A DNA stretch of 64,000 nt, taken from Stratiformator vulcanicus. GTDB taxonomy: Bacteria > Planctomycetota > Planctomycetia > Planctomycetales > Planctomycetaceae. This document shows positions 51,711 to 64,000 of the stretch, in pieces (the stretch's first letter is position 1; each line of letters opens with the position of its first letter). The position numbers and the translations under genes are program-made. The notes beneath the pieces were generated by a model. It was not told the DNA's origin and searched no databases. It saw nothing but the letters and a program-made list of their open reading frames with translations. The DNA lies in the NCBI RefSeq assembly GCF_007744515.1, contig NZ_CP036268.1, positions 2,519,712 to 2,583,711 on the forward strand, written 5' to 3'.

Positions 51711-54700
51711 ATGCTCGATTCCGTGATTGCCTTTTCGCTACGGCATCGCCCATTAATCATCGTACTGAGTCTGGCCGCGATGATCTACGGCGGCTTCCTG
51801 TCGACCTCGATGCCGATTGACGTGTTCCCCGACCTCGACCGTCCGCGGGTCGTGATCCTGACGGAGTGTCCGGGCTACTCGCCGGAAGAGATCGAGGCCC
51901 TCGTTACGCAGCCGATTGAGCAGGCCGTCCTCGGTGCCAACGGCGTGACCGACGTTCGCAGCCAGTCGAGCATGGGGCTGGTCGTGATCTATGTGGAATT
52001 TCAGTGGGACATGGAGATTCGCTACGCACGGCAGGTTGTGCAGGAACGGATCACGAACGTCGTCGCAACAATGCCGCCCGGCATCGACCCCTACATGGCC
52101 CCGCCCACCTCGATCATGGGGCAGATCATGCACGTCGGCCTTTCTCGCCAGAAAGGCCCCGGCGGCGGCACTCTCGCTCCGGTCGAGGAGCCTGGCCTGC
52201 TCATCGAGCGGCAACGGACTGAGGGAGGTGTCGAACTGACCGCTTGGCGAACGCAGGGGCGGCGAGACACCTCGCAGTGGGTCGAAGCCGATATCAAATC
52301 GTGGGATGAGATTGAACCGCGGGAGCCATCGACGGTCGATCAAGTCTTCGAGGTCGCGATTGATGGCGAACGCCATACGGTGCGATTCCTGACGGACGAG
52401 CAGCGTTCGATGGAACTGCGGACGTTGGCCGACTGGATCGTACGTCCGCGGCTGCTGCGGATTTCCGGCATCGCCGAGGTCATTGTGCTCGGCGGTGACA
52501 AGAAGCAATACCACGTCTTGCTAAACGCCGACCGACTGCTGGAATACGGCGTTTCGATCCGGCAGGTCGAGGAAGCGGTCGCCGCCAACAACCTGAACAC
52601 CAGCGGCGGCTTCACCGAGGAAGGTCAAATGGAACGGCCGATCCGCATCATCGGTCGCCTCGGACCATCTCCCGATCGGGTCATCGAGCACCTCCGGAAG
52701 ATTCCGGTCGCTGAGGATGAGAACCGGCCCGTGCTCGTGGAGCAGATCGCCGAGGTTGCCGAGGGCACGCCTCAGAAACGGGGCGATGCCAGCATCGATG
52801 GCCGCGATGGCGTCGTCATCACGCTCGTCAAGCAGCCGCACGTCGATACCCGCGGACTCACCGAGAGAATTCATGAAACGCTAATTGATGTGGAACGCTC
52901 ACTCCCCGCCGACATGGTGGTAAACCGCGAACTGTTCCAACTCAAGAACTTCATCGATCGCGGCATCTACTACGTGGCCGAGGCCCTCGTGGTCGGGGCG
53001 GTACTGGTCGTGATGGTGCTGGCCCTGTTCCTGATGAACTTCCGCACGACCTTTATCACCCTCACGGCCATTCCACTGTCGCTGATGATCACGGTCATCG
53101 TGTTCAAGCTGCTCGGCGTCGTAGTGGGGCGGGAACTCTCCATCAACGTGATGACGCTCGGCGGGATCGCCGTGGCGATGGGCGAACTGGTCGACGACGC
53201 GATCGTCGACGTCGAGAACATCTATCGACGGCTGAAGGAGAACAATGCCCTCGGCAATCCGCGACCGGCCTTGCAGGTGGTCTACGAAGCGAGCCGGGAG
53301 ATTCGCAGTGCGATCGTATTCGGCACCGCGGTCGTGATCCTCGTGTTCCTGCCGCTGTTCGCGATGTCGGGGGTCGAGGGGCGACTGTTCGCCCCGCTTG
53401 GCTTCGCCTACATCGTCTCGATTCTGGCGTCGCTGCTCGTCTCACTCACGGTGACGCCGGTGCTGTCGTACTACCTGCTGCCGCAGTCGCGGGCGACGCA
53501 CGAGCACGGCGACGGGCCACTCCTGAGACTGCTCAAATGGCTCGCAAAATTCCTCGTGAAGTTCAGCCTGCGGTTTGCCGGTTCGCTGCTGGTGATGACT
53601 TGGGTCCTTGTAGGCGGATCGATCTGGCTGCTGAGTTCGTTGGGTGCGGACTTCCTGCCCAAGTTCGACGAGGGGAGCGTGCAGGTCAATCTGACGCTCC
53701 CCGCGGGTTCGTCGCTCGAAGCCTCGAACGACGCCGCGGCGATCGTCGATGCCAAGCTCGAACCGCTGATGAAGACGGCGTCGAACCCGGAGGGCGACAT
53801 TCTGCATTTCGTGCGACGCACCGGGCGAGCCGAACTCGACGAGCACGCCCAGCCGGTCAACATGACCGAGTACATCCTCAGCATGAACTCCGAGACGGAG
53901 CAATCCCGCGGCGAGATCATCGAGCAACTGACTGAGGAATTGAAGCAGGAACTACCGGGCGTCGATGTCGAGATCGACCAGCCGCTGGCTCACCTCATTA
54001 GCCATATGCTCTCGGGTGTCTATGCCCACGTCGCGATCAAAATCTACGGCGACGATCTCGCCACACTGCAACGGCTCGCGAGGCAAGTCAAAGGCGAAAT
54101 TGAAGACATCCCCGGCTTGACCGAGCCGGTGATCGAGTCGCAGGTTTTCGTGGATGAACTCCATATCGTCCTCCGGCCCGATGCCCTCGCCCGCTACGGC
54201 GTCAGTCGGGAGTACATTGCCGCCTATGTCCAGACGGCGTTGCGGGGCGATGTCGTCTCTGAGGTGCTCGAAGGGATGCGGCGGTTCGACCTCGTGGTCC
54301 GGCTCCGCGAACAGGAGCGGACCGACTACTACTCGCTCCGCGACCTGCGAATCGACCTGCCCAACGGACAGGGCCGGATCAAGCTCGAAGACGTGGCCGA
54401 CTTCCCGCAGGGGACGACCGGGCCGAATCAACTCATGCGTGAAAACGTCCGCCGCCGAATGGTGGTGCGGTGCAACACGCAGGGACGGGACCTCGGCAGC
54501 GTCGTCGCCGACATCGAGAATCGCATCGCGTCCCGCATTGATTTTCCCGAAGGCTACTACGTCGATTACGCCGGACAGTTCGAGAGCCAACGCTCGGCGA
54601 CGCTGCTGATCGGCCTGCTCGCCGTTGTCTCGCTCGTCGGCGTATTCGTCGTGCTGTTGATGCTCCACTCGTCGGTGCGGATCGTGCTCCAGATTCTGAA

Positions 54701-55148
54701 CGCGATCCCCACCGCTTTCATCGGGGGCGTGGCCGCTCTGGCGATCACCGACCAGACGCTGACGGTGGCCAGCCTCGTCGGCTTCATTTCGCTGGGAGGC
54801 ATCGCGGTGCGGAACGGCATTCTGCTCGTAACGCACTACTTCCACCTGACGGAGCAGGAGGGGGAGGAGTTCTCGAAAGAGATGATCGTCCGTGGCAGCC
54901 TCGAACGACTGGCTCCGGTCTTAATGACCGCACTGACCGCCGGGATGGGCCTGTTGCCAATTGTTCTCGGCGGCCAGAAACCCGGCCTCGAAATCCTCTA
55001 CCCGGTGGCGACGGTCATCCTTGGGGGTCTGATCACCTCGACCTTCTGCGAGTTCCTGATCCATCCCGGCCTGTTCTGGAAGTTCAGCGGGAAAGACGCC
55101 CTCGCTGCGGCCAAGGGCGAACACGAAGACGCGGAAATGCTCCGATGA
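51711..55148 (+). CDS. CzcA/CusA-like heavy-metal RND efflux pump
   Basis: A 1145-residue inner-membrane RND transporter with the expected 12-helix duplicated architecture. The helix-4 signature GELVDDAIVDVENI (491-504) carries the Asp/Glu proton-relay residues of the heavy-metal subfamily, but differs from the DGAVVxVEN of classical CzcA and the CusA consensus, so the metal is unclear. Family segments include FPDLDRPRVVILTECPGYSP and IMLHSSVRIVLQILNAIP-like helices. An insertion of ~90 residues at ~145-235 after MGQIMHVGLS lengthens the first porter subdomain. It is translationally close to the adaptor, and its stop overlaps the downstream lipoprotein ORF. Confidence 0.93.
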   Translation: MLDSVIAFSLRHRPLIIVLSLAAMIYGGFLSTSMPIDVFPDLDRPRVVILTECPGYSPEEIEALVTQPIEQAVLGANGVTDVRSQSSMGLVVIYVEFQWDMEIRYARQVVQERITNVVATMPPGIDPYMAPPTSIMGQIMHVGLSRQKGPGGGTLAPVEEPGLLIERQRTEGGVELTAWRTQGRRDTSQWVEADIKSWDEIEPREPSTVDQVFEVAIDGERHTVRFLTDEQRSMELRTLADWIVRPRLLRISGIAEVIVLGGDKKQYHVLLNADRLLEYGVSIRQVEEAVAANNLNTSGGFTEEGQMERPIRIIGRLGPSPDRVIEHLRKIPVAEDENRPVLVEQIAEVAEGTPQKRGDASIDGRDGVVITLVKQPHVDTRGLTERIHETLIDVERSLPADMVVNRELFQLKNFIDRGIYYVAEALVVGAVLVVMVLALFLMNFRTTFITLTAIPLSLMITVIVFKLLGVVVGRELSINVMTLGGIAVAMGELVDDAIVDVENIYRRLKENNALGNPRPALQVVYEASREIRSAIVFGTAVVILVFLPLFAMSGVEGRLFAPLGFAYIVSILASLLVSLTVTPVLSYYLLPQSRATHEHGDGPLLRLLKWLAKFLVKFSLRFAGSLLVMTWVLVGGSIWLLSSLGADFLPKFDEGSVQVNLTLPAGSSLEASNDAAAIVDAKLEPLMKTASNPEGDILHFVRRTGRAELDEHAQPVNMTEYILSMNSETEQSRGEIIEQLTEELKQELPGVDVEIDQPLAHLISHMLSGVYAHVAIKIYGDDLATLQRLARQVKGEIEDIPGLTEPVIESQVFVDELHIVLRPDALARYGVSREYIAAYVQTALRGDVVSEVLEGMRRFDLVVRLREQERTDYYSLRDLRIDLPNGQGRIKLEDVADFPQGTTGPNQLMRENVRRRMVVRCNTQGRDLGSVVADIENRIASRIDFPEGYYVDYAGQFESQRSATLLIGLLAVVSLVGVFVVLLMLHSSVRIVLQILNAIPTAFIGGVAALAITDQTLTVASLVGFISLGGIAVRNGILLVTHYFHLTEQEGEEFSKEMIVRGSLERLAPVLMTALTAGMGLLPIVLGGQKPGLEILYPVATVILGGLITSTFCEFLIHPGLFWKFSGKDALAAAKGEHEDAEMLR

Positions 55149-55195
55149 CGTTCGTCGGAGCGAGACTGAAAGTTTTTTCGATAAGGAGTGCGTTG

Positions 55196-55717
55196 ATGAA
55201 GAAGATCACAAGTTTGACAACCGGCCTCGTGGTCGCGGCTGCCCTTGTCGTCGGCTGCCAACCGGCCGCTGATACGCCGCCTGCCGATACCGCGGACAGC
55301 GGACAAAGTTCCGGAGGTACGGCGGGCGGAGAATCGGAAGATCATGGCCACAGCCACTCGGACGGCCCTCACCACGGCGCCGTTGCCGACTGGGGCGGGG
55401 GGACCTATCACGTCGAATTCACGGTCGATCACGACGCCGAGGAGGCGACGGTTTACGTGCTCGGGAGCGATGCCAAGAGTGCCGCTCCGATTGATGCCGA
55501 GAGCCTGCTGCTCAGCATTAAGGAGCCGTCGTTTCAAGTGGAACTGAAACCGCAACCGCTCGAAGGCGAAGCCGACTGGAAGAGTTCCCGCTTTGTCGGA
55601 CAGCACGAAAAACTCGGCATCGTGCAGGAATTCGCCGGCACGATCAGCGGACAGGTCGACGGCACCCCCTACGCCGGGGACTTCAAAGAAGAGCCGCACG
55701 GCGACCACGAGCATTAA
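55196..55717 (+). CDS. His-rich lipoprotein of the metal operon
   Basis: A 173-residue protein from ATG 55196, which follows an AAGGAG site. The N-terminus ends in the lipobox VVGC (Cys21), so it is a probable lipoprotein. After a Thr/Asp/Gly-rich linker comes DHGHSHSDGPHHGAV, a His-rich metal-binding-like segment. The mature domain repeats a beta-sandwich theme (YHVEFTVDHDAEEATVYVLG). The C-terminus is again HGDHEH. It probably binds or buffers metal in the periplasm for the CzcA-like pump. An in-frame start at 55145 adds 17 residues overlapping the pump gene and is less likely. Confidence 0.82.
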   Translation: MKKITSLTTGLVVAAALVVGCQPAADTPPADTADSGQSSGGTAGGESEDHGHSHSDGPHHGAVADWGGGTYHVEFTVDHDAEEATVYVLGSDAKSAAPIDAESLLLSIKEPSFQVELKPQPLEGEADWKSSRFVGQHEKLGIVQEFAGTISGQVDGTPYAGDFKEEPHGDHEH

Positions 55718-57972: not shown

Positions 57973-58231
57973 GTTTGGGGTTGTCGATTGCTTTCGGATC
58001 GTCGACCTTTGAGGGCGAAGGTTCGTAAGGTACTGTGTGTCAACGGCTTACGGCCTGTTCGCCCACTTGGTTCGACGGTCTCCACCGCTGTTTTTGCGCC
58101 GCAACAGTCGGTTGAGTCGAGAATCCTTGGCGAATTGGCCCGGTCTGATGCAGATACCTTGATTGAAGCGAGGTTGAGTGCCTCGTGGATCGTTTTGGCA
58201 TTCTCTTCGACGACCAAGCTGCAGGCGGGAG

Positions 58232-58762
58232 ATGGACCGAGATCCGAGTGACTTTGTCGGGCTGCTGGTTCGGCATCAAAACGACCTGCTGCGGTACATC
58301 TTGCCGTTGGTCGGATCAATGGATGACGCCCAAGACGTGCTGCAGGAGACGGCGACCGCTCTTTGGAAAAAGTTCGGTGACTTCGATTCGGATCGACCCT
58401 TCCTGCCGTGGGCGAAGCGTTTCGCGCAGTACGAAGTATTGATGCACCATCGCTCCAAGCGACGATTTACGTTTCTCTCAGACGAGTTGGTTGCCGAACT
58501 CAGTGCGGCGGCGGATGCCGACGCGAATGTACTGGCCGATCATCACGCGGCGTTGCAAGTTTGTTTGGACTCATTAAGTGAGGAAGAGCGGCAGATCGTC
58601 AGAACGCGATATGCCGATTCGGACACGACCATTCAGCAATTGGCGGAGCAAACGGGGAAATCAGTCAACGTCTTATATAAATCTTTGTCGAAGATTCGGA
58701 AGCAATTGCTCGACTGCGTTGAACGGCGGCTCGCACCGCAATCTCTATCCGCGGAAAGCTGA
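58232..58762 (+). CDS. ECF-type sigma-70 family RNA polymerase sigma factor
   Basis: A 176-residue sigma factor. Region 2 is seen in QNDLLRYILPLVGSMDDAQD followed by VLQETATALWKKF, with the DNA-melting part RPFLPWAKRFAQYEVLMHHR. Region 4 has TIQQLAEQTGKSVNVLYKSL. This form belongs to the ECF type common in planctomycetes and verrucomicrobia, which lead operons of FecR/DUF1553- or DUF1592-type genes. ATG 58232 is preferred; an in-frame start at 58178 adds 18 residues. The next gene starts 3 bases after its stop, so the FecR protein is the candidate regulator. Confidence 0.9.
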   Translation: MDRDPSDFVGLLVRHQNDLLRYILPLVGSMDDAQDVLQETATALWKKFGDFDSDRPFLPWAKRFAQYEVLMHHRSKRRFTFLSDELVAELSAAADADANVLADHHAALQVCLDSLSEEERQIVRTRYADSDTTIQQLAEQTGKSVNVLYKSLSKIRKQLLDCVERRLAPQSLSAES

Positions 58763-58765
58763 AGA

Positions 58766-60754
58766 ATGACCCGAACTGATCGCGAACAATTAGACGATCT
58801 GCTATCGACCTTAGTGGATGGTCGTATTGATGGAGTCGGGCAAGACCGGCTGGCCGTTCTGCTGCGCGATGCCACGGCCCGTCGACGCTATTTGGCGTTT
58901 ATGAGATTGCACGCCGACCTATCGATTGACAGGCAGATTGACGCGCCAGTTATTTCGGCCGAGAGATTAAGAGATAATCGAAGACCTAACGATCGCTTCT
59001 GGTTCGCTGCCATTGTCAGCGCGTTGAGCTTGTTGGTCATCGCGGGGTGGTGGCAGGCGTTCTCAATCGATCAACCAACGATCGCATCAATCGCATCGAT
59101 TTCCATCTCGGATGGTTCCGTCATCGCATCCGGATCTGATGCGTACCAATCTGACGGCGAATTAAGTGCTGGAAAACTTTCGCTGGAGACCGGCAAGGCT
59201 ACCCTAAAGATGCTCAGCGGCGCCGAGGTGCGGCTTTCAGCTCCGGCATCGATCGAGTTGCTGGATGCGAAGGCGATTCGTTTAATTGCGGGGCGGATCA
59301 CGGCCGACGTCCCTGATCAAGCAATCGGTTTTCGGATTCTGACTCCGACAGCGGACGTCATCGACCTCGGAACGTCATTTGGAATTGAAGTCGATGATGC
59401 CGGTGCTACGGAAGTGCATGTGTTCGACGGCGTGGTCGCGGCACGTGGTTCTGAGGAAGCCGACATCGTTCCGATCGCTGCGGGCGAGGGTGGGCGTGTT
59501 GAGCTTTCGGGCGGGGAGTTGGTCGCGGTCGCTTACGATGGAAGCCGGTTTGATAGTATTCGTCGCGCCGATTCGATTAAGCCCGTTAGCGGCAGCGACT
59601 CGGGAGAGGGCTCGGCTCCGGTCGATGGAGACGGCCCAATACCCGCCGAAGCCCGTGTGGTATTCCTAGGCGATCGCGCGACCTCCCGCGGGACTCATCT
59701 GTTGCTGATCGACCAGACACTCGCGTCTCAATTCAATGGAGATCGACCGACATTTTTTAATGAGGGTGTCACATTCCCGCTGTCGTTTGACGAAACTGAT
59801 TTTCATGACCGAATCCTGGCACACCGTCCGACACACGCTGTTCTCGAATTCGCCAACGACATCGCCCGCGACGATGGGCGCCGCACGCCGACCGAATATC
59901 GCCGGGACATGCTCCGCTTGATCGAGCGTCTTAAGGCGGCGGGTATCGAACCCGTTTTAACGACAGGCTACCCGTTCGATCATGATTTCGAAGAGCCGAG
60001 GACTGCTCTCAATGCTTACAACTCAATTGTGCGTCAGATCGCTGTCGAACATCGACTGAGACTTGCGGATTATTATGACGGGTTTGTCGAGCGCGGTGAT
60101 CCGCCGTCTCTGGTTTATAAGCGATTTGAAACGCCGATGTTTCATGGTTATCACGAGATGGCCGAATGCCTGCTCGAGGCGTTCGGGTATCCGGACCTCA
60201 AGGTGGCGCTCAAACTGCATGGGCTAAAAACCTTTCCGGGGGTCATCGAGAAGTGGCGATATCAAAGTATTGAGCGGAACTTAGAGATCGACGAAGCATA
60301 TATCTCGTCAATGAATGTGGACGCCGAATGGGACATCGTCGAAATTCCTGAAGTAGACGGTTTTTCCCGGCGACGCACCGAGCCGACGCACTCCAATCAT
60401 TTTCAGGAGACCGAGGTCGGCTTCGTTCGCAGTTTTCGCGGAGCACGCAATCGAAAATACATCCTTGCTTCAACGATCAACGTACCTCATTCGCAAGAGG
60501 TCACCGTGAATGTGGGGGGGACGGTGCGCTCGGTATGGCTTAATGGCGAGCGGATCGTCGAGCCACCGAAATACCACCGCGGTTGGCAGCCAACGGCCGT
60601 TCGAAGCGATATCTCTTTAGTCGCCGGCAGGAACCAAATCGTGATTGAAACGTTTGATGATTTCTTCTTCAGCTTGACGAAAGATGCAGACTGGGGCGTG
60701 ACCTCATTACATACCAATGAAGAGCCAGCAACGTTCCATACTATCACACCGTGA
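58766..60754 (+). CDS. FecR-domain membrane protein fused to an SGNH-hydrolase-like domain
   Basis: A 662-residue protein. Residues 1-60 are a cytoplasmic part like an anti-sigma domain, one TM helix spans ~73-95 (FWFAAIVSALSLLVIAGWWQ), and a FecR domain follows (GKATLKMLSGAEVRLSAPAS, PTADVIDLGTSFGIEVDDAG). After ~295 an SGNH-like fold begins, FLGDRATSRG (~300), then FNEGVTF, EFANDIARD and MFHGYHEMAECLLEAF. The catalytic Ser of GDS is replaced by Arg and the Asp before the His is not evident, so hydrolase activity is doubtful. A C-terminal beta domain follows. It probably senses or binds sugar-like ligands in the periplasm and controls the ECF factor. Confidence 0.82.
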   Translation: MTRTDREQLDDLLSTLVDGRIDGVGQDRLAVLLRDATARRRYLAFMRLHADLSIDRQIDAPVISAERLRDNRRPNDRFWFAAIVSALSLLVIAGWWQAFSIDQPTIASIASISISDGSVIASGSDAYQSDGELSAGKLSLETGKATLKMLSGAEVRLSAPASIELLDAKAIRLIAGRITADVPDQAIGFRILTPTADVIDLGTSFGIEVDDAGATEVHVFDGVVAARGSEEADIVPIAAGEGGRVELSGGELVAVAYDGSRFDSIRRADSIKPVSGSDSGEGSAPVDGDGPIPAEARVVFLGDRATSRGTHLLLIDQTLASQFNGDRPTFFNEGVTFPLSFDETDFHDRILAHRPTHAVLEFANDIARDDGRRTPTEYRRDMLRLIERLKAAGIEPVLTTGYPFDHDFEEPRTALNAYNSIVRQIAVEHRLRLADYYDGFVERGDPPSLVYKRFETPMFHGYHEMAECLLEAFGYPDLKVALKLHGLKTFPGVIEKWRYQSIERNLEIDEAYISSMNVDAEWDIVEIPEVDGFSRRRTEPTHSNHFQETEVGFVRSFRGARNRKYILASTINVPHSQEVTVNVGGTVRSVWLNGERIVEPPKYHRGWQPTAVRSDISLVAGRNQIVIETFDDFFFSLTKDADWGVTSLHTNEEPATFHTITP

Positions 60755-60804: not shown

Positions 60805-63642
60805 ATGGTCTCTCGATATCCACAACTCGTCCTTTCTATCGCACTCGGCGTCGGCGTGCTCGCCGTGGGGATAACTACGGCATCCGCGGAAGATGTTTTT
60901 CGAGATCGCGTTGCTCCGCTGATCTCATCTCACTGCATCGGCTGTCATGGTGATTTCGATGATCCGGCGGGCGATATTAATCTTGAGCAGTTCAAAGCCC
61001 AGTCAGATATTTCCAAGCAGCGTGATGTGTGGGTCGGCGTGCGGGAGGCAATTGAGACCGGCTATATGCCGCCGGAAGATTCCGAACAGTTCAGCTTGGC
61101 GGAGAAAGACCGGCTGATGGCCGCTTTAGGAAAGCTGCTCGATGCCGTCGATCTGGGTGGTGCGCGTGATCCCGGCAAGCCGATTCTGCGTCGCTTGACA
61201 CGCCTTGAGTACAACAACGCCATTCGCGATCTGTTCGGCTTGAAGATCGACGTCTTTAACTTTCCTGAACGAATTCCGCTGGATCGGACCTATTTTGAAC
61301 CGGACAATGCACAGTTGGGCGATCAGTTATTAATTCCGGTCACACCGTACGGCAAAGTGCACCCTGCGTTGTTGCGCGAAGCCGGTCTTCCCGGAGAGAA
61401 TCCCGCGGAACACGGTTTTACGAATCGAGGCGATACTCTTAATATTTCGCCGATTCTCATCGAAAAATATCTCGACCTGTCCGAACAACTTCTGGAGAGC
61501 GAAGGCCTTGCACAAGCGAGTCCGTGGGCCGCAGCGCTGTTGGGATCGGGGGCAATTCGAACAGCGATTCCGGAACGAGATGTGACGGCTCGTTACTCTC
61601 GCGGTCGATTCGGTTCTATGTTCGATGACTCGGCTACGGTGGTTGACCATTCCAATTCTGCGGGAATGGAGCTGTCGACCTTTCGGACACGCGTCCAACA
61701 GAAGCAACTTTCGAGCCGCGGTGGAGTTGTTCGGGCTGACAAAAACGGCAAAGACATCCGCTTTGGTGGCTCGTCATCTGCAGGGTTAGTCTTAGAAACC
61801 GGATCGGATCGACCGGTCCAAGTTGTCCTTCAATCATCAATGCCCCTGGCGTTCAAAGAATTGACGGGTGCTGTGCCGACATCCGGAGTGAGGGTGCTGA
61901 CAAACGCCGTGCCGAATGACAAGGTCTTTGATATTAAAATTAATGTGCGTGATGGCGCGCCGCAGAACCGGCCCCAATCCCGAGTGACGGAAGCGGCATT
62001 CAATATTATTTCGCTCGATGGCGTCACAACGCAATATGTGGAGATTAAAGCTCACTTCAGTGGCGGCGGCCTGAAGAAATTGATGGAACCCGTCACAGAC
62101 GGGGCCGGCAAAGGAAATCGATTCGTCCGGGTGCAGGCTCCGCAAGGCGAATGGATCGAGCGGATTCACTTCGACGGCTCGCGGGTTCGCTTTGGCGATC
62201 ACGTTGCTTTCGATGATCTGACATTGTTTTTTGGCGATGTCAGCAGCACTTGGCAGCCGTTTGACGGTATCAGCCGCGTCGACTTACTTCGAATGTTTAT
62301 CGAGCGCGCTTTCCGGAAACCGCTGTCGGACGGCGAATACCAGAAGTATCTAGGCATCTATGAGATGTTGCGAGCGACGGGAATTGACGAGCGCTCCGCA
62401 GCGAGGGATGTGTTGCGTGCCATCCTTTCTTCACCGCGGTTCATTTACCGGATTGAAAACTTCCGCCGTGACGAGCCGAAGGTTCGGCAGCTCGATGATT
62501 TCGAGTTGGCATCGCGGTTGTCGTTTTTTCTTTGGAACAGCTGTCCCGATGCAGAGTTATTAGCGGCTGCACGGCGAGGCGAACTTCAAAGCGATGAGGG
62601 ACTCATCCGCCAACTCCGCCGGATGCTGAACGACCCGAAGGCGAAAGAGCTTTCAGAGTCATTTGCCGTGCAATGGCTGCAATTGAACGAACTGTTCGGG
62701 ACGCGGCCGGACACGAAACGGTTCTCTAACTTTTATTTCGGAATTTCGAATAGCTCGACACTCCATCAGGACATGTTATTGGAACCGCTATTGCTGTTCG
62801 AATCGATTCTCGTGGAAGACCGCAGTGTGTTGGAATTTATCGATACGAATTACGGATATCTCAATGAGAAATTAATCCAACATTACGGGTACGAAGAAGA
62901 ATTGGCCGAAACGCTCGCATCGCTTAAAGGGAAAGGAGAGCGGGCATTAATCGGTCGCGGAACGAAAGGAATTCGGGATATCTGGTTTCGCTGCCGATTG
63001 CCAGATCGGCGTCGCGGCGGCGTGTTTACCACGGGAGCCGTCCTGACTTTGACATCGACACCGCTAAGGACAAGCCCGGTCTATCGCGGGGCCTGGATGC
63101 TGGAGGCAATATTTAATAATCCGCCGCCGCCGCCGACTATCGCGGTTCCGCCGCTCGGTGCGGATGACCGCAAGATTGAGGAAGAGGGTTTGTCACTGCG
63201 TGAGAAGTTAGCCCAGCACCGCGAGGATGCCTCCTGCTCGGTCTGTCACGATCGGATCGATCCCCTCGGCATCGCACTGGAAAACTATGACCCCATCGGG
63301 AGATGGCGGGACCGGTCTGGAAAGTTTGAAGTGGATGCGACCGGGACATTGTCACACGGTCGTGCATACGATGGCGCCGTTGACTTCAAGGATGCGTTGC
63401 TGGATCGCCCGGAAGAGTTCGTCCATGGCTTCTCCGGTCATTTGCTTTCATACGCGCTGGGGAGAAAACTGAATTACTTTGATCGCATTGCGATTGATGA
63501 GATCGTCCAACGTTCCGCTCGGCACGATTACCGAATTAAGTCGGTTCTTGAAGGGGTCGTGCTGAGCTATCCGTTTCGCCATACTCGAAACCTGCCGGCC
63601 GTTCCTGTTGCGGATACCGTCAAGGAAGTATCTCATGATTAA
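60805..63642 (+). CDS. DUF1592-type planctomycete cytochrome, exported
   Basis: A 945-residue protein with a signal peptide (LVLSIALGVGVLAVGITTAS). Haem-binding CIGCH is at 44-48 (planctomycete cytochrome c type). Domains then follow in the order known for this lineage: DUF1587-like (RRLTRLEYNNAIRDLFGLKI), a middle beta region, DUF1595-like (MFIERAFRKPLSDGEYQKYL), DUF1592 (DDFELASRLSFFLWNSCPDA), DUF1588-like (RGGVFTTGAVLTLTSTPLRT) with a second CSVCH at ~811-815, and DUF1585-like (FSGHLLSYALGRKLNYFDRI). The function is not established; redox or carbohydrate-related roles have been suggested. It overlaps the DUF1552 gene by 8 bases. Confidence 0.93.
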   Translation: MVSRYPQLVLSIALGVGVLAVGITTASAEDVFRDRVAPLISSHCIGCHGDFDDPAGDINLEQFKAQSDISKQRDVWVGVREAIETGYMPPEDSEQFSLAEKDRLMAALGKLLDAVDLGGARDPGKPILRRLTRLEYNNAIRDLFGLKIDVFNFPERIPLDRTYFEPDNAQLGDQLLIPVTPYGKVHPALLREAGLPGENPAEHGFTNRGDTLNISPILIEKYLDLSEQLLESEGLAQASPWAAALLGSGAIRTAIPERDVTARYSRGRFGSMFDDSATVVDHSNSAGMELSTFRTRVQQKQLSSRGGVVRADKNGKDIRFGGSSSAGLVLETGSDRPVQVVLQSSMPLAFKELTGAVPTSGVRVLTNAVPNDKVFDIKINVRDGAPQNRPQSRVTEAAFNIISLDGVTTQYVEIKAHFSGGGLKKLMEPVTDGAGKGNRFVRVQAPQGEWIERIHFDGSRVRFGDHVAFDDLTLFFGDVSSTWQPFDGISRVDLLRMFIERAFRKPLSDGEYQKYLGIYEMLRATGIDERSAARDVLRAILSSPRFIYRIENFRRDEPKVRQLDDFELASRLSFFLWNSCPDAELLAAARRGELQSDEGLIRQLRRMLNDPKAKELSESFAVQWLQLNELFGTRPDTKRFSNFYFGISNSSTLHQDMLLEPLLLFESILVEDRSVLEFIDTNYGYLNEKLIQHYGYEEELAETLASLKGKGERALIGRGTKGIRDIWFRCRLPDRRRGGVFTTGAVLTLTSTPLRTSPVYRGAWMLEAIFNNPPPPPTIAVPPLGADDRKIEEEGLSLREKLAQHREDASCSVCHDRIDPLGIALENYDPIGRWRDRSGKFEVDATGTLSHGRAYDGAVDFKDALLDRPEEFVHGFSGHLLSYALGRKLNYFDRIAIDEIVQRSARHDYRIKSVLEGVVLSYPFRHTRNLPAVPVADTVKEVSHD

Positions 63643-64000
63643 GACCAATCCCGTCTCTCGCCGCAAAATATTGAAAGCGGGTGGGATTACGTTTGCACTT
63701 CCGCTGTTGGAATCACTCGTCCCTCAAGTGGCACGCGCTTCCGAACAGGCTGTGGAGCAATCTTTGCCGGTGCGAACTGCGTTTTTCTATATCCCCAATG
63801 GCGTCAACCTTGAGACGTGGATTCCGAAGCAAGAAGGAAGCGATTACGAAATACCGGCAGCGCTCAAGCCGATCGAAAAGGTACGTGATGACATCACCAT
63901 TCTGACCGGCTTGAATCGGACGTATGCGGCCGGCACGACATTACACTCGCAGGCGGGCTCCTGCTGGTTGACCAGTTCGCCACCGTCAGAAACGAAAGAC
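63635..64000 (+). CDS. DUF1552-family exported protein (3' end outside window)
   Basis: The first 122 residues are visible. The N-terminus looks like a Tat or Sec signal (NPVSRRKILKAGGITFALPL, with an SRR pair). The mature part begins VRTAFFYIPNGVNLETWIPK and DDITILTGLNRTYAAGTTLH, matching the DUF1552 opening. In planctomycetes, DUF1552 genes nearly always follow DUF1592 genes, which fits here. Its ATG overlaps the end of the DUF1592 gene, so the pair is coupled. The function is unknown. The rest of the gene lies beyond the window. Confidence 0.88.
   Translation, partial: MIKTNPVSRRKILKAGGITFALPLLESLVPQVARASEQAVEQSLPVRTAFFYIPNGVNLETWIPKQEGSDYEIPAALKPIEKVRDDITILTGLNRTYAAGTTLHSQAGSCWLTSSPPSETKD

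Follow-up and report, generated by a model that had tools for sequence, protein, structure and literature searches.

A FecR-type sigma regulator of Stratiformator vulcanicus with a degenerate SGNH esterase domain as candidate ligand sensor

In Escherichia coli, the input of FecR is the STN domain of FecA. In this FecI-FecR-FecA system an ECF sigma gene is followed by the gene of a single-pass FecR protein, for which an RseP-like cleavage is described (PMC8144685). The biomass-sensing RsgI anti-sigma-I factors of Clostridium thermocellum are transmembrane sigma regulators with a C-terminal sensor, which, according to PMC12203970, may be a CBM, a glycoside hydrolase (GH10) or a cellulose-binding peptidase-like domain. 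Planctomycete and verrucomicrobial regulators of the FecR-LamG and FecR-NPCBM types comprise an upstream sigma gene, a FecR domain and a C-terminal domain that may bind glycans.

We analysed a window of 64,000 nucleotides from S. vulcanicus, the window being the whole stretch of DNA under study, in which an ECF sigma gene precedes a gene for a FecR protein of unusual composition. The locus shares with the E. coli system the gene order, a FecR protein with one predicted membrane pass and possibly the RseP-type cleavage. It differs in that a search of the window genome gave no STN domain, and the FecR protein has its own C-terminal module instead. It resembles RsgI in being a transmembrane sigma regulator with a putative C-terminal sensor, but the sigma family and the regulator core are different (TIGR02989 and FecR, respectively), and the sensor is a relative of the SGNH esterases whose catalytic residues have been lost. 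Where the FecR-LamG and FecR-NPCBM regulators carry a lectin-like domain, the window protein has a dead hydrolase domain. Sensor domains on anti-sigma factors are already known (compare RsgI); no description of a FecR-SGNH fusion was found in the literature, among the matches listed, in their titles and abstract openings.

Gene order, domain layout and predicted fold

The window genome (G000) is a single contig of 5.23 Mb. The first-pass annotation of this DNA had described a FecR protein fused to an SGNH-like domain and adjacent to an ECF sigma factor gene. Both points held, since FecR (PF04773) and TIGR02989 are matched above their respective cut-offs, and an SGNH fold was found in the model of the same open reading frame (Table 1). 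The fusion ORF starts 3 bases past the stop of the sigma gene, and 50 bases separate its end from the PSCyt/PSD gene. Right beyond the window end (L088:4836-9188), downstream of the DUF1552 gene, co-directional genes encode PdxA (TIGR00557, above cut-off), a DUF1537/SBD_N kinase-like protein, a BD-FAE-type esterase and a KdgT-like permease, which possibly form a sugar-acid pathway. In another part of the window, the end of a gene for a large transporter (51711-55148), which we take to resemble an RND pump, is overlapped by a gene for a small protein with a His-rich stretch (55145-55717).

Table 1. Coordinates of the features of the locus within the window.
Feature	Position	Strand	Basis
ECF sigma factor, Rhodopirellula/Verrucomicrobium family, GTG start as called mechanically	58178..58762	+	TIGR02989 140.4 bits vs cut-off 124.55; Sigma70_r2
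FecR - dead SGNH - GH2_N-like fusion protein, 662 aa	58766..60754	+	one open frame
Residues 1-77, N-terminal region	58766..58996	+	alignable with other fusions
Residues 78-96, predicted transmembrane segment	58997..59053	+	top Kyte-Doolittle 19-residue mean, 1.94
Residues 143-224, FecR domain	59192..59437	+	PF04773 34.3 bits, cut-off 24
Residues 295-480 (about), SGNH-fold domain without catalytic residues	59648..60205	+	fold match Z 18.8; PF13472
R304, catalytic Ser position	59675..59677	+	17-row alignment
D365, catalytic Asn position	59858..59860	+	17-row alignment
R453 to T456, Asp and His positions of DxxH	60122..60133	+	17-row alignment
Residues 488-645, beta-domain resembling GH2 sugar-binding N-domains	60227..60700	+	fold Z 11.1
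PSCyt1/PSCyt3/PSD2-5 protein (DUF1592 and relatives), possible target gene	60805..63642	+	gene order as in G211
DUF1552 gene start; gene extends beyond window end	63635..64000	+	PF07586 270.9 bits in L088

By analogy with FecR proteins, the N-terminal region that precedes the predicted transmembrane segment is presumed to be cytoplasmic and to bind sigma. Four Pfam families matched the protein at E <= 1, with no RsgI-type N-terminal or self-cleaving family among them. The GDSL-like match at residues 346-448 (PF13472, Lipase_GDSL_2; E 3.6e-7) scored 31.3 bits, 1.6 under the curated cut-off of 32.9, and no Pfam match fell within residues 488-645.

An AlphaFold model of residues 280-662 was built from a three-row alignment and had a mean pLDDT of 66, i.e., moderate confidence; in its SGNH part the ten-residue blocks ranged from 46 to 94, the best of them at 92-94. 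The SGNH fold anticipated after residue 295 was found at about residues 290-479. SGNH/GDSL esterases were present in the top Foldseek rows for the model (LAE5, E 2.1e-9), and in a second structure comparison all the best rows were SGNH esterases, led by AlAXEase (Z 18.8, 176 residues, rmsd 2.4) and the acetyl-xylan esterase Axe2 (Z 18.8, 184 residues, rmsd 2.6). By its modelled fold the domain belongs to the SGNH superfamily; it is like these two acetyl-xylan esterases in fold, but none of their catalytic residues Ser, Asn, Asp and His is present. A separate model of the C-terminal domain (mean pLDDT 67, moderate) resembled GH2 beta-glucuronidases over 122 residues with an rmsd of 3.0, and CBM35 and PA14 rows were also present in its Foldseek list.

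The active site in the fusions and in stand-alone homologues

In order to compare the active site, six FecR fusions, that of the window and those of the genomes G359, G211, G787, G824 and G691, were aligned with 11 stand-alone proteins whose profile match extends into the C-terminal domain (in L084 the match stops before its end). L057/L089 and L058/L090 are the same loci and were each counted once; left out of these 17 rows were SGNH-only proteins such as L009-L037, L072, L074 and L077, and the stand-alone copy G274:C244 (L076/L083), in which a stop breaks the frame. The catalytic Ser, Asn, Asp and His are all present in 11 of 11 stand-alone proteins, whereas Ser, Asn and His are absent in all the fusions. 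In the order window, G359, G211, G787, G824 and G691, the Ser column reads R, R, K, R, H, R, the Asn column D, D, E, Q, E, E, the Asp column R, K, D, N, T, N and the His column T, L, T, D, A, V. In an HMM alignment made earlier, the three fusions then known had a gap at the Asn column, and Asn stands there in neither alignment; the gap that the earlier one showed at the Ser column of SGNH-only proteins is due to a match beginning later. The broken copy G274:C244 may also be degenerate, having in the earlier alignment A at the Asn column, D at the Asp column and H at the His column, with the Ser column lying outside the part covered.

The alignment confirmed that the GDS motif reads GDR in the window protein (residues 302-304, with R304 at the Ser position). 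The first-pass annotation had also taken the block around ND and the final His to be conserved, which the alignments ruled out: N364 stands one residue before the Asn column, which holds D365, and the His column is occupied by T456, the histidines of the FHGYH motif (H460 and H463) lying 4 and 7 residues further on. Over blocks I, II, III and V, by which an active SGNH enzyme would be recognised, the window domain has kept the block II Gly (G334) alone. For the part of the argument that is a matter of sequence, we hold firmly that the fusion protein is a genuine pseudo-esterase on a FecR-type sigma regulator. The original idea of a hydrolase fold reused on an ECF/FecR transmembrane regulator is well supported by the fold match, by residues lost in 6/6 fusions and kept in 11/11 stand-alone proteins, and by the sigma gene upstream in 6/6 loci.

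In block I, 9 of 18 positions are invariant in the six fusions, compared with 30 of 186 in the domain (p 4e-4). Since eight of these nine positions are also common among the stand-alone proteins, the constraint is a retained and not a new one, and much of it is inherited. All six fusions have a histidine at H311, a position close in sequence to the former active site, and none of the 11 stand-alone proteins does.

The basic and acidic replacements can be read in two ways. The residues at the Ser and Asn positions form opposite or complementary pairs in all six fusions (R-D, R-D, K-E, R-Q, H-E and R-E), and another good reading of this pattern is a salt bridge that could close the pocket, so that the pair may shut it instead of binding anything. 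The dead SGNH domain would then be a rigid spacer and the GH2_N-like domain alone would sense, in line with the resemblance of the C-terminal domain to GH2 sugar-binding N-domains and with its many invariant positions. We consider this alternative serious but unlikely, because pairwise identity with the window protein is higher in the SGNH part (32-44%) than in the C-terminal domain (25-30%), and because the invariant H311 is new in the fusions.

Distribution, neighbouring genes and descent of the module

The search for the fusion in other planctomycetes, suggested at the outset, yielded at least five further FecR fusions, those named above, so that the six come from six planctomycete genomes of five families, with a full-length open frame in all of them; G359 corresponds to the MAG Phycisphaera sp. 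RI_212 and G211 to the MAG Planctomycetota PL25a_bin.67. Among 392 genomes of the phylum, with the best three candidates per genome scored, matches across both halves were found at least in G359 (41%) and G211 (30%), besides the window. A profile of the SGNH and C-terminal domains matched at least 12 of the 392 genomes at E <= 1e-30, three of these being the window, G359 and G211 fusions. Among 397 genomes of the class of G359, at least seven matched at E <= 1e-60 and at least four had fusions (G359, G787, G824 and G691). In both profile searches the best five candidates per genome were scored, and the two genome sets overlap, so the counts are not additive. The fusion is not characteristic of the order to which the window belongs, where one of 170 genomes matched at E <= 1e-40; in the order of G359 the matches were three of 151, one of them a fusion, and in that of G211 one of 10.

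With the alignment of the three fusions then known as query, 34 loci were retrieved, two of which were known fusions. A single C-terminal sequence, used as query against the genome contigs, found no relative, and the seven-row alignment contained no stretch conserved enough as a search query. Stand-alone proteins with an SGNH and a GH2_N-like C-terminal domain and intact catalytic residues (L059, L060, L061, L062, L080, L081, L131 and L132) occur sporadically in Planctomycetota, and two proteins from the window's family (L027, partly masked, and L036) have two tandem SGNH domains.

All six fusion loci, and 31 of 32 other FecR loci, have a related sigma gene upstream in the same orientation. 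A PSCyt/PSD gene like that of the window adjoins one of the five other fusion loci (G211), where a DUF1552 gene is also next, which makes two of six overall. Of 31 genes downstream of other FecR genes, four encode DUF1549 with DUF1553 and four PSCyt1, indicating that the pairing of sigma/FecR with PSCyt genes recurs. The module could conceivably bind a protein partner, e.g., the PSCyt/DUF1552 proteins encoded next to it in the window and in G211, in place of a small ligand, and to report the state of the envelope; we find this improbable, as the PSCyt/PSD and DUF1552 genes adjoin only two of the six loci.

Other FecR proteins carry different C-terminal domains. In a Pfam survey of 34 planctomycete and verrucomicrobial FecR proteins (3 fusions and 31 others), 32 matched FecR, 12 LamG, three GDSL and two NPCBM, with single matches to CBM96, C-type lectin and propeller families. 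LamG, NPCBM, CBM96 and C-type lectin domains in these proteins would be expected if the C-terminus is the sensor. L109, which is cut by a contig end, was absent from this survey and included in the scan with the SGNH-GH2_N profile, which matched none of 32 non-fusion FecR-type proteins; GDSL families of Pfam are matched by two of the genes that follow other FecR genes, without a match to the profile of the fusion module. At L110 and L122, in two different genomes, the sigma and FecR genes are followed by a gene for a secreted protein, the two proteins closely resembling each other and both having a PEP-CTERM-like end.

The sensor modules of the six fusions group in a single clade (100/100), whose stem measures 1.4 changes per column, and the end branch of the window module measures 1.37. 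The sigma factors of the same fusions fall in three places and a single clade was rejected (p-AU 0.017); the second sigma genes L096, L098 and L111 were dropped from this tree, and L120, whose FecR gene starts at the contig edge, gave none. The FecR halves also fall in three places, in a tree from which 2 of 38 other proteins, with matches of 150 residues or less, were dropped, and for them a single clade was not rejected (p-AU 0.267), so that the case for sensor exchange is carried by the sigma tree and the identities. Sigma identity is 52-63% within the sets {window, G359, G824} and {G787, G691} and 30-40% between these sets; the corresponding ranges for the SGNH part are 42-52% and 40-49%. 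These sequence comparisons suggest that the sensor may have been exchanged between sigma/FecR systems, in a group that was defined by the fusion, the idea of exchange having arisen after inspection of the FecR tree; uneven rates of change are another possible source of the discordance.

The long stem and end branch, together with the rarity in the window's order (see above), would also fit a decaying SGNH remnant without function, FecR and the N-terminus doing the work. This has very little probability in our view, given the full-length frame in six genomes of five families, the charge pattern conserved at the Ser and Asn columns, and the one sensor clade beside different sigma lineages. A tentative idea, about which we have considerable doubt, is that the dead esterase is a receptor cassette moved between ECF sigma/FecR systems, in which the change of Ser and Asn to paired basic and acidic residues created a new site for recognising what was once the substrate or product, an acylated or acidic glycan.

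Signal input and proposed mechanism

The window genome has seven FecR matches and nine M50 protease matches; a related protein in L002 is not among the seven, and the genome has at least seven FecR proteins. The STN domain (PF07660) had no match in this genome at E <= 0.001, with the controls positive in 4 of 14 named genomes, including E. coli. Given this negative result, the input of the FecR regulator is likely to be the fused module.

Least probable of all is that the SGNH domain has remained enzymatic, acting by another catalytic mechanism or on another substrate. The fold and the block I residues Asp303, Thr306 and Thr310 are kept, but Ser, Asn and His are gone in all six fusions, with no common nucleophile or general base at these columns instead. 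We favour, with confidence somewhat above even, a FecR-type sigma regulator with a single membrane pass and a periplasmic input module, which would consist of a dead SGNH esterase and a GH2_N-like, probably sugar-binding beta-domain, and would signal the binding of a ligand to sigma. On the best reading, the pseudo-esterase would sense a ligand on behalf of the sigma factor and, at two of the six loci, of the adjoining PSCyt/DUF1552 operon.

The module is related to the stand-alone SGNH-GH2_N proteins of Planctomycetota, in which the catalytic residues are intact. On FecR, Ser, Asn and His have been replaced, most simply once, in an ancestor of the sensor clade, and a new pattern has become fixed, with a basic residue at the Ser position, an acidic residue or Gln at the Asn position and the invariant His311. 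In the mechanism that we propose, the ligand would be bound in the cell envelope in place of being cleaved. It would most likely be an acylated or acidic glycan or a fragment of one, as suggested by descent from an esterase, by the GH2_N-like domain and by a basic residue where Ser once stood. Binding would alter the conformation of FecR or lead to its proteolysis (RseP/S2P type), with a relay via FecR and the transmembrane helix, and this change would release or activate the co-encoded ECF sigma factor. The sigma factor would then direct transcription of the downstream PSCyt/DUF1552 genes in the window and in G211, and of other targets elsewhere.

Because the proposed sensor is the relative of an enzyme with intact homologues, guesses about its ligand can be put to the test, and the path from enzyme to receptor can be followed back. 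The fusion protein is a candidate input for the PSCyt/DUF1552 operon and, in a genome with at least seven FecR proteins in which no STN domain was found, the fused module may offer a lead on what such regulators sense.
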